64,000 nt of DNA from Cucumis sativus (taxonomy: Eukaryota > Streptophyta > Magnoliopsida > Cucurbitales > Cucurbitaceae): the NCBI RefSeq assembly GCF_000004075.3, contig NC_026660.2:13783837-13847836 (forward strand), given 5' to 3'. Position numbers and translations under genes: made by a program. Positions within the stretch are counted from its first letter, which is position 1. Every line of letters starts with the position of its first letter. The notes below the pieces were generated by a model. The model saw only the letters and a program-made list of their open reading frames with translations, did not search any database and was not told the DNA's origin. Positions 6,994 to 15,900 of this stretch are shown one piece after another.

Positions 6994-9900
6994 TCAGTCT
7001 TGGTAAATGTTATGGATGGCCGTAGTGATGCTTTTACAATCGAAATCGATGGTCTTTATCCAGTTCTCAAAATCTCCAATTTCCTACAAAATAAACACAT
7101 CAAATTAGTATGAATAACATATCAAATCGAAAAAGATCTAAAAGAAACTCAAAGGGGAATATGACGAAATCATGAAGGAAAGGAAATCAGAGTGCCCTCC
7201 CTATCTTACATTTTCAAGATTATGATTTTTTTTTTTTTTTTGGTAAAAGAAATCTTCTATCGATCAATAAAATCAGGGGAGAACCCCAAACACCAAAAGG
7301 TGATTACATAAGAGGTTGTCAATTACTGATTAAAAAGGATAGCTATAGTGAACGAAACAATGCTTAGGTATTAAGAATAAACAGTAGATAAAACTATTAG
7401 AGACTTTGTAAATAAGTTGTAAATTTTGTTGTACTTTTTGTAGCTTTTTGTTATTTGTTATAACTGATTTAGTTGGTTATTTGTACATCAGACCCTATAA
7501 ATAGGGCTTCTGTGTAATGTATTCAAGCAAGTGGAGTTATTTCTCCTTAATGAATATTACTCCCATTATTCAACACTTGTTATGGTATCCACAAAACTAC
7601 TGAGGGAGGGAAAGGGACCCTTGTGAGGTTTGTTCTTTGACAACATTTCTTGTGTCCCTTTAGGTTTGGTTTCAAATTTTTTTGTAACTACACTCTAAGA
7701 AACATTTCCCTTAGTTGGAACCCCTACCTTTAGTTGGGTTGTTTTGGTGCCTTTTTTTCTCTTTGCCATGTATTCTTTCATTTCTTCTCAATGAAAGCAA
7801 TTGTTTCATAAAATTTTAAAAAACAAGATTAAAGGAGGAAAGAATCATGTGAAAAGACAATGTGCACCTGGTTTCTTTTAGTTCAAATCTTTAACTAAAA
7901 AACTTATTGAGTGATTCAAGCGTTAAAACTAATCACAGTTTTAGGTTCTGCAGATCCAAAATACGAAGTTGCTCAATGTTTTACAAAGGTTAAGGTCAAG
8001 AAACAATGTGCACAAGCACGGCTAAAACTGTCCAAAATCCTGTGAAAAATTGAGATTTTCTATATGTATCTGACAAAACAATAAAGGCATGTTAGTTTAG
8101 CTCTGGAAAATTGAAATTTTTTATATGCATCTGACAAAACAATAAAGGCATGTGTTGGGACTCAACCTTGAATTCAATCGGTAGACTTTATTGGTTGACA
8201 ATCAATGTGCTACAATGTAAGAAAATTCCGAATTGAGATGAATCTCAATTCCAAACCCTCAACATTCTCTGCGGATCTCTCAAAGGTGTACAAAGGACTA
8301 ATTTCGTTTTTCAACTTTCTAACTGTCTTTCCCTCCTAAAAACAAGAAGTATTTATACTACAGAAATAACAGACTCTTTAACACGAGCACTAAAAACTGA
8401 CTTCATTACACACGTGCCACTCTCATGTTCTTCTTTTATTCCTTCTGCTGTATTGGTGTATGATAGGAGGTCTATCAGCATGTTAGTGAGCTCAGTTATG
8501 ATTGTGGAGTCCCTTCTCAATCCGTCATTCAGGGAGAAAGGCCAGTTTCTTTGGTTTTCCAGCATGTGTGCTTGTTATGAGCTTTTGTAGGATGAGAAAA
8601 ACAGAAGGGTGTTCAGGGGTCTTGAGAGGGACCCAGTGAGCTCTAGTCCATTGTTCGTTTTCATGTTTCTCTCTAGCCTCGATTTCAAAGCCCTTTAGTA
8701 ATTGTTCTCATTGAAAAGAGAGACAACGAGTTCACACCAATTTACGTGGAAACCCGAGTACCGGGAGAAAAACCACGATTGTTTGTTGTTATTATTTTCT
8801 AATGAATAAAACAATAGGTACATGGGAGAATAAATAGAGTACACAATGGAATAAAAAAGGAAAAGATTTAGGAAAATAAGGAATACATTCCCATAATCTT
8901 TCCATAATTATTCTAGGATTCTAACAAGGAAAAAGCCTAGAAAAAAAGGAAAGAATTCCAACACTCCCCCTCAAGTTGGGACGTAAATATCAATGAGGCC
9001 CAACTTGCTAACGCAAAAGTCGAAGTTTGGTCTGAGAAGCCCTTTGGTAAGAACATCAGCAACCTGTTGACTCGAAGGGATGTACGGAATGCATATGCTC
9101 CCACTGTCAAGTTTTTCTTTGATAAAATGTCGATCAATCTCAACATGTTTAGTTCTATCATGTTGAACAGGGTTGTTAGCAATACTAATAGCGGCTTTAT
9201 TATCACAGAAAAGCTTCAATGGTGTCTCACATTCCTGATGAAGATCTGTCAAAACTTTCTGAAGCCAAATTTCCTCACATATTCCTAAACTCATAGCTCT
9301 ATATTCAGCCTCAGCGCTGCTCCTGGCCACAACACTTTGCTTCTTACTCCTCCAAGTTACAAGATTGCCCCAAACAAAGGTACAATAACCAGAGGTAGAT
9401 TTTCTGTCAACAACAGATCCTGCCCAATCCGAGTCAGTGTATGCCTCAATGGTCTTTCTGTCTGTTTTTCTAAACATCAGCCCTTTACCAGGTGTTGATT
9501 TTAAGTATCTCAAGATTCTGTTGACAGCTTTCATGTGTTCCTCATTAGGGGTCTGCATAAACTGGCTGACAACACTCACAGCAAAGGAAATATCAGGACG
9601 AGTATGAGATAAGTAAATTAATTTACCCACGAGGCGTTGATACTGTTCTTTATCAACTGGAACTTGATCATCAGAGTTTCCTAGTTTGCAGTTGAATTCA
9701 ATAGGAGTGTCAGTGGGACGACATCCTAACATACCTGTCTCGGTTAACAAATCAAGGATGTATTTTCTTTGAGATACGGAGATACCTTCTTTAGATCTGG
9801 CCACCTCCATTCCAAGGAAATATTTCAAATTTCCCAAATCCTTGATTTCAAACTCATCGCCCATTCTCTGCTTTAGTTGACTGATTTCTGCCTGATCATC

Positions 9901-12900: not shown

Positions 12901-15900
12901 AGGTCCATTTCTTGCCATATAAGAGAAAGCTTATTGAAAAAGGATGTGACATCCATGGTTCCTTGCTTGCATTCATGAACTTGCTTTCTCAGCGTGTATA
13001 GACGAGAGGCATTCTGACGTTTTGAGTAAAGTGTCTGGGCTGTGTCCCAAATATCCTTGGCTGTTGCAGCAAACAATAACGGCTTGCCAATTTGAGGTTC
13101 CATACTATTGATCAATATGGATCGAAGAATAGAGTCTTCTGCCTTCCAATATCGTTCATGTGGGTCGCCCGGTAGGGGCGAGGTATTTCCCTGTCAGAAA
13201 GCTAAATTTTTGTCGTCCTTCGAGGACCATCTTTACTGACTGAGACCATGAGAAATAGTTGTTGCCATTCAACTTTTCTCCTGAAAGATGATACATGGAA
13301 GACTGAGCCACCGTATTAGTCACATAAGGAGAGGATACATTAGGGAACGAGTTTACCGGATTCTCAGAATACATCGGTAGAGTGGATGTCGTCCCTAAGG
13401 TAGCCTCAAGTGCTGCTATCTGTTGTCGAAGCCCTTCCAATTGTTGATGAACTATTCCCGAGGAAGCTTGCACGTTACGGTTGGAATATGCCGAAGATTC
13501 ACCAACCTCAAATGTTGAGTGAATTTGAGAGTTTTTAACATCGGGATGGTAGCTAGGATCATTGGGTGGCTGGCCATACAGATTTGACGGCAGAAGCGGT
13601 GGTAGCCGATTGGAATTAGATGGCAGAACATAAATCGGGGCGTGGGGAGCAATATAGGCCGCGGACGAAGAAAAGGGTTGGACAGATGGGATGGTCGGCG
13701 CCGTCTGAGGAAGAAAACCAGGCGCGTGGTGGTCCGGCGGCGCGTGGTGGTCCGGTGACGGCGCGGACGACTGCGGTAATGACGAAAAATTATTTTCGGA
13801 CGTTTTGTAGCCGGCTTAATAATTCGTCCATGGCAGCACTCATCCGAGCATCGATGGCAGCAGCTACGGCAGCACTAAAATTGATGGCTGTCCCTTCTGT
13901 TTGATTTTCATAAGTGGTTTGGTTTTTTTGGGTTTCTAGGGTGTTTTCATTGTCCCGCTCTGATACCATATTGAAAAGAGAGACAACGAGTTCACACCAA
14001 TTTACGTGGAAACCCGAGTACCGGGAGAAAAACCACGATTGTTTGTTGTTATTATTTTCTAATGAATAAAGCAATAGGTACAAGGAGAATAAATAGAGTA
14101 CACAATGGAATAAAAAAGGAAAACATTTAGGAAAATAAGGAATACATTCCCATAATCTTTCCATAATTATTCTAGGATTCTAACAAGGAAAAAGCCTAGA
14201 AAAAAAGGAAAGAATTCCAACAGTTGTTTAGGATTGATCTTGCATTGTTGGAGTCCCTTCTTGTAGAGGGTAGCCTTCTTTTATGGGTTTGGTTTTTTGT
14301 ATGCCTCATACATTTCATTTTTCTCGCTGAAAGTGGTTATTCTCATTAAAAAAATACAGGCATGTTTGGCCCAAAGAATCCTTTAACTCATGGTGATCTA
14401 AACAACAATTCCATGCCTTGTTGATTTATGTCACCGTGGGCCTCATTGCTAAACGAGTCTCCAGACTTAACAACTACTAAGACTAAACAACTCTACTTTT
14501 TGCCCCAAGTGTCCCCAAGAGATTATTTCTATCTTTTTTTAAGAAAAAGGAAAAAAGAGAGGAGATTATTTCTGTCTTGTTGCCCTATACATTTTCATTT
14601 CACTCTCAAATGATGAGACAACATCAAGGGTCCAGAATCATGAGAAATGTTTATTCAGTGATCACAAAGATGGAAGTTAAAGTTAAAGTTAAGTTTTATT
14701 TAGACTTTTGCAGTCTTTTTATCTTGTATACTTATTACTTAGTGTGTTCATGAAATGGACTAGTTTGAAAGGTGTTTCTTCCAAGTCTGTAGCTACCTCC
14801 TTGTGTCAACAAAGCGAAGCACAAGTCATTGAAAGCAAACCATCATAACACAAAACAAAATCTTCTAAACCTAAACGATAACTGAGAAGTTTTTTAAAGT
14901 AGCCTTTTCTTGAATAGCCAAACTGTTTCCAAGAGTTGTGCTGAATGGATTGCAAGGCCAACGAAACCTTTTTCTTTTCTTTTTGACATCCATGAGTGTC
15001 CATTGTCCATACTAACTTCAGTGCACCTCAACTATTCTCATGGGGCAATCATTTGGCTTTACTACATTTGGTTGCCAACCGAAATTGTAGGGTATTAAAT
15101 CCTTGAAAGTGGCCACAATGACTTGAATTCATTCCCTCAAATCCCATTGTTACACCCCACTTAAAATTTTAAAATGAATAATAAATAGCTTAAGTTGTCT
15201 TAAGTAGCAGACTAGCAAAAAACAAATGCAAACTAGCCCTAACCTAAGTTTCAGGAACTGCAACTATCCATATTTCTATTGATACGAGGAGTACAGTGGG
15301 GCTGGTTTTGAAGATACCGCTTGGCAACCGAGTCTGAACAACACTAACCGTGCTATGAATTTAACATACAAAGTTTTAACCAAAACTAAGAATATAAATA
15401 ACATAACTAAAAATACACCAAAAACAAACACAACAGATCAATGTCGAATAGGCCCCAAACTCTTAATAGGAACAGATGGGCAGAATTGAAGCCATAGGTA
15501 AACATCTAGACTCAACATCAAATGTAGTTACTAAGTAGTATCATATCCAATATCAACAGCGCCCCAATGTAATCCGTCAAGCTCAAATACCATCTCAACA
15601 TCATTGAATTGACTTGAAAAGTTTAAGAGTTCTGGAAAACTGAATTGGCGGACTCCAACAACGCTGCTAAACTCTTCAGTCAGTAATAAGATTAAGCAGG
15701 CTTTGATTCGCAACAATGCTGAATTCACATATTAAATTTCAGATGTACAGCTAAAAATAAAAATGCAGTGTTTTCTTGAAATTCAGTAGTTGCTCTCCAA
15801 ATGAGAACGAACCTTAACAGCAGTGTTCAAAGCGTGAGTGGCGGCGAGCCATTGATCGGTTTGCTTCGTAAATCTTGCAATCGTAGTCCCTAAAGCCCTA

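Follow-up and report, generated by a model that had tools for sequence, protein, structure and literature searches.

The question raised by this locus is how a small gene, the last 90 coding nucleotides of which lie 8.7 kb beyond the rest and on the far side of a retrotransposon, can be read as one gene. The window is a stretch of 64,000 nucleotides from Cucumis sativus, C6:13783837-13847836, and the genome searched comprised 226,625,048 bases in 88 contigs. Places denoted L0xx are matches from the genome searches, representing the best-scored subset only where the first-look candidates exceeded the number scored. The gene is BLOS1 (GCN5L1, BLOC-1 subunit 1), and the element, of the Ty1/copia type with long terminal repeats (LTRs), is located in its second intron. 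From the sequence analysis described below, the locus very probably represents a spliced three-exon BLOS1 gene into which a copia element has been inserted.

BLOS1 and the joining of its exons

BLOS1 consists of three exons on the minus strand, with coding sequence running from 16317 to 6994. Exon 1 (16317-16146, 172 nt, the coding part being counted from the first ATG) is separated from exon 2 (16018-15813, 206 nt) by a GT-AG intron of 127 bp (16145-16019). Intron 2 (15812-7084) extends over 8729 bp, is also GT-AG and in phase 0, and leads to exon 3 (7083-6994, 90 nt including the stop, EIGDFENWIKTIDFDCKSITTAIHNIYQD). The joined coding sequence of 468 nt encodes 155 amino acids with no internal stop, in agreement with the first-pass annotation, in which the coding exons had been described as in frame across 8729 bp. 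The gene is BLOS1, as identified by its match to the Pfam family PF06320 (GCN5L1) and by alignment to a solved BLOC-1 subunit 1 in the PDB, 9tqb_G. Residues 42-154 of the 155-residue protein correspond to profile positions 1-113 of 114 at 138.5 bits (cut-off 23.9), while exons 1 and 2 alone reach only profile positions 1-85 of 114 at 86.4 bits, so that exon 3 adds 52 bits. For 9tqb_G, chain positions 3-113 align with residues 44-154 at an E value of 1.9e-20. The junction itself reads AAG/GT...TAG/GAA and falls between K and EIGDFENW; the structure alignment runs through it ungapped, the Pfam match extends across it, and the earlier statement that the join restores the family motif exactly is thereby upheld. 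In Arabidopsis, BLOS1 is described as belonging to the BLOC-1 assembly and as having a role in endosomal sorting (PMC5035748).

The splice signals of intron 2 appear adequate, not outstanding. A branch-like TACTAAT begins 27 nt before exon 3, a T-rich tract also precedes the acceptor, and pyrimidines occupy 9 of the 15 positions counted there. It is the unbroken protein, more than these signals, that identifies the exon. The main argument for a real splice is that GT-AG joining restores the family sequence exactly, with neither loss nor gain of a residue, and that neither part was found to be encoded elsewhere. Regarding the latter, a complete BLOS1 copy at another place, which the first-pass annotation had named together with missing junction reads as overturning its interpretation, was looked for genome-wide and not found. 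The protein search of the genome, at E values up to 10, returned three places, all of them exons of the minus-strand BLOS1 gene and none a second copy. The Pfam search of the genome likewise returned no second copy among 14 places, the only two above the cut-off being those of BLOS1 itself. The best two of the 12 places below the cut-off, L084 and L085, were rejected as BLOS1 copies since their tblastn matches were non-significant (best E value 0.16); this individual check covered these two of the 12. Moreover, the 184 bases at 6900-7083, comprising exon 3 and DNA downstream of it, have one matching place in the genome.

On the other side of BLOS1, a peroxidase gene is located at 17264-18732 on the plus strand, with two separate matches to PF00141, of which the first has a score equal to the cut-off. 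Approximately 0.95 kb separates its start from the start codon of BLOS1; as the two genes are on opposite strands, they could share a promoter region.

The copia element, its insertion site and its age

The retrotransposon occupies 14222-8709 on the minus strand (5514 bp) and is recognized by its LTR pair, its motifs and its Pfam domains. The 5' LTR (14222-13969, 254 bp) is followed by TGGTATCAGAGC, and the 3' LTR (8963-8709, 255 bp) is preceded by GGGGGAG; these we take to be a primer-binding-site-type sequence and a purine-tract motif, respectively. One open reading frame (ORF) at 12051-13115 carries gag-type (PF14223) and Pol_BBD (PF22936) domains, and another of 1026 amino acids at 8974-12051, scanned in three pieces, carries GAG-pre-integrase, integrase core, SH3-like and RVT_2 domains, both on the minus strand. 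The Pfam order of gag_pre-integrs, rve, SH3_retrovirus and then RVT_2, with integrase upstream of reverse transcriptase, is that of copia; no RNase H model was reported in the Pfam scan of the intronic copia ORFs. The ORFs of at least 100 amino acids on the minus strand, at 13790-14164, 13156-13473, 12048-13115 and 8971-12051, are all separate, and the intronic copy therefore does not read as the single polyprotein frame expected of an autonomous copy. The element lies in the same (sense) orientation as BLOS1, a feature absent from the first-pass annotation. The LTR family is large, with 763 first-look candidates; 40 of these were scored, and every one is 98-100% identical to the 5' LTR.

The limits of the element depend on where the LTR ends. 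In other copies the end reads ...TTTTCAATA (...CAATA), and with this end the 5-bp flanks match, by eye, at five of six solo-type places (L015, L019, L025, L026 and L031, the exception being L021) as well as at two LTR pairs, L023/L024 and L006/L028. With CAATA as the LTR end, the intronic element is 14222-8709, flanked by ACAAC at 14223-14227 and AGAAC at 8704-8708, the upstream and downstream copies of a target-site duplication on the minus strand with four of five bases identical. The near-complete Ty1/copia element noted earlier is thus real, but it does not end at 8712, where it had been placed. A recombinant or mis-joined element had been considered when no duplication was seen under an assumed LTR end of ...CA; it was ruled out once the CAATA end revealed ACAAC/AGAAC.

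Furthermore, the DNA on both sides of the element matches other places in the genome as two halves of one older dispersed repeat, the upstream half at 14223-14354 (40 places listed) and the downstream half at 8480-8708 (33 places listed). Seven unoccupied relatives that match both halves were examined (L036, L037, L040, L048, L049, L050 and L053; L051 and L054 duplicate L036 and L037), and their identity to the split repeat is 73-81%. Each of the seven shows a 5-bp overlap between the flanks. In L036 this overlap can be read straight off the ends of the alignments; one base had to be added in L037 and L049, and in L040, L048, L050 and L053 the alignments had to be extended without gaps by 4 to 20 bases. 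The site in these relatives reads AGAAC once, AGAAT three times, and AGAGT, AAAAT and AGCAT, such that AGAAC or AGAAT accounts for four of the seven. These results support simple integration, as judged from the sequence, into an older intronic repeat with a 5-bp duplication. On this reading, BLOS1 intron 2 grew by repeat insertion, the copia element entering an older repeat that was already present; subtracting the element together with one copy of the duplication would leave an intron of 3210 bp.

Over an alignment of 254 bases, the two LTRs are distinguished by four substitutions and a single gap. A rate of 1.3e-8 represents the fast end of the dating range. The substitutions (4/254) give K = 0.0159 and an age of 0.6-1.8 million years, and private changes only (2/254) give 0.3-0.9 million years. 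The rate of 4.5e-9 has been used for cucurbits (PMC9456015). Among the five LTR differences, those at columns 100 and 258 occur in none of the 28 other LTRs compared, and the remaining three fall within a short tract that is variable among these 28. Simple LTR dating is weakened by this variable tract, and the data suggest an insertion approximately 0.3-1.8 million years old. The split between C. sativus and C. hystrix is placed at 4.81 million years (PMC9456015), and the insertion would be younger than this split under either age range.

It can also be observed that the intron LTRs hold two versions of the tract and that two LTRs on contig C48, L028 and L006, approximately 4.9 kb apart, hold both in reversed order, which may reflect recombination between copies or conversion.

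Probable transcription through the intron

Most probably, RNA polymerase reads through the whole of intron 2, and the spliceosome excises 15812-7084 in one piece to yield the 155-residue product. The element lies inside an intron with a coding exon downstream of it, the intron itself being deduced from protein continuity, and it is probably methylated, judging from work in Arabidopsis and rice. IBM2- or EDM2-type factors, by the same analogy, would suppress early polyadenylation inside it. We regard this methylation and IBM2 step as somewhat favoured. Introns carrying CHG methylation together with H3K9me2 are a common feature of transcribed rice genes, and some of them show early polyadenylation when OsIBM2 is lost (PMC7145194); Arabidopsis IBM2 and EDM2 mutants display early polyadenylation in intronic elements (PMC10241880; also PMC4417168).

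Two points weigh against the reading of a spliced BLOS1 with an inserted element. A crude cut for pyrimidines plus branch motif is passed by 8 of 227 intronic YAG sites, and the actual acceptor fails it. In Gynostemma, also a cucurbit, lower expression is reported for genes with intronic LTR elements (PMC9456015), and full-length BLOS1 output could therefore be reduced.

A rival reading is that the element makes BLOS1 mainly truncated, with early polyadenylation in intron 2, a 135-residue main product and little full-length protein. Reading through from exon 2 adds 9 codons (VRSHLESNY) before a stop, giving 135 amino acids that lack the last 29 residues. AATAAA at 14700 and 14655 precedes the element by approximately 430-480 bp, the element itself is sense to the gene, and failed silencing is documented to cause early polyadenylation at intronic elements (PMC4417168, PMC10241880). 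Set against this, exon 3 is undecayed, with its frame intact, its motif conserved and its acceptor usable, although such intactness is weak evidence because 0.3-1.8 million years leaves little time for decay. Sense AATAAA in intron 2 is at chance level, with 5 observed and approximately 6 expected from base composition, and therefore gives no support either way. A mainly truncated BLOS1 is, on balance, quite improbable. An origin of the 8.7-kb intron, or of the position of the element, in an assembly artefact is more improbable by far: a high-copy family with near-identical LTRs is the kind of sequence able to mislead assembly, but a chance mis-join would not produce two flanks that together make up one older repeat and carry a 5-bp duplication at the break, and the exons flank the element in the correct order and on the correct strand.

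Besides the full-length BLOS1 favoured here, the young sense element might act as an epigenetic switch, whereby weakened silencing of the intron, for example under stress, makes transcripts stop within or ahead of the element and replaces the full protein with the 135-residue form, which lacks the conserved C-terminal piece. This is very doubtful. If true, endosomal sorting would be tuned in plants carrying the insertion and not in plants without it.

Precedents, other repeats and neighbouring features

A copia element, COPIA-R7, reportedly lies in Arabidopsis RPP7. Intronic copia elements have been described in plants before (PMC4417168, PMC6712407), and the BLOS1 locus is a clean but ordinary example of an event that is well documented. 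Among the intronic-element genes studied in Arabidopsis, COPIA78 (ONSEN) is kept full-length in AT1G11270, and some genes of this set rely on silencing of the element to be transcribed in full (PMC4417168). The likeness to BLOS1 is a copia-type element inside a gene intron. However, the COPIA78 ORF is intact and methylation and transcripts were measured, whereas the BLOS1 element has a split frame, the gene and the element family differ, and the case is known here from DNA sequence. In soybean, RAC, a copia element of 4.77 kb in intron 1 of the rhg1-a alpha-SNAP gene, is apparently spliced out of the mature transcript (PMC6712407). It resembles the BLOS1 element in lying within one intron, in having both LTRs and in having related copies genome-wide. 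It differs in being antisense with an intact ORF, while the BLOS1 element is sense, its frame is split and its splicing is deduced. On a broader scale, 4,227 of 37,866 rice gene models, approximately 11%, have heterochromatic introns (PMC7145194), and among 2,697 large introns in grape, 591 complete LTR elements were analysed, with copia exceeding gypsy by approximately 6.5:1 (PMC3058033). Both resemble BLOS1 in that introns are enlarged by transposable elements; in rice, the heterochromatic introns are overrepresented close to promoters (PMC7145194), in contrast to BLOS1, where the last intron is concerned. In the literature searched, no paper linking BLOS1 and cucumber was found, and the only match found for BLOC1S1 combined with intron, transposable element and plant concerns swans.

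General knowledge of introns or retrotransposons is unchanged by this locus. For annotation, it illustrates how easily a last exon of 90 nt at a distance of 8.7 kb is lost and a truncated BLOS1 called. Since the insertion would be younger than the split from C. hystrix, relatives should have an intron of approximately 3.2 kb. The element may also be present in some cucumbers and absent from others; these would then form a natural comparison for what such an element does within an intron.

The several LTR remnants described in the first-pass annotation were not confirmed: of the other repeated stretches found in intron 2, only 8470-8155 is LTR-like, by eye. This low-copy repeat of 316 bp (8155-8470), which may be an old LTR, occurs at four places in the genome including itself, the others being 90%, 77% and 69% identical. 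A further old dispersed fragment at 7602-7797 was searched within a 601-bp query that gave 285 first-look candidates, 40 of them scored. It is probably of the same kind as the split older repeat, because places at C5:30.036 Mb and C4:16.739 Mb appear in both match sets. Parts of 15696-15355 and 15148-14968 have matches of 65-85% at 18 other places. Part of 15355-15696 has six same-strand matches of 70-74% across C4:9100149-9178368, perhaps a tandem array. An origin of the dispersed repeats from long interspersed nuclear elements (LINEs) is suspected from a tail-like motif read in L065 and L070, which we take to be a LINE feature; in the genome search with zf-RVT, 150 of 1685 candidates were scored. 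An ARAGORN call of tRNA-Leu(GAG) at 8594-8674 on the plus strand, within the older repeat, is probably spurious, since Rfam had no match in the window at curated cut-offs.

Elsewhere in the window, a 363-codon ORF at 21655-22743 on the plus strand matches the Ycf2 family at 515.7 bits and appears to be plastid DNA carried in a nuclear chromosome sequence. Matches to Transposase_21 (tnp2), Transpos_assoc and DUF4216 are located at 37149-38891 and 39864-40493, both on the plus strand, and presumably represent a CACTA-type DNA transposon. Finally, an ORF of the LEA_2 family encoding 191 amino acids lies at 61774-62346 on the plus strand.

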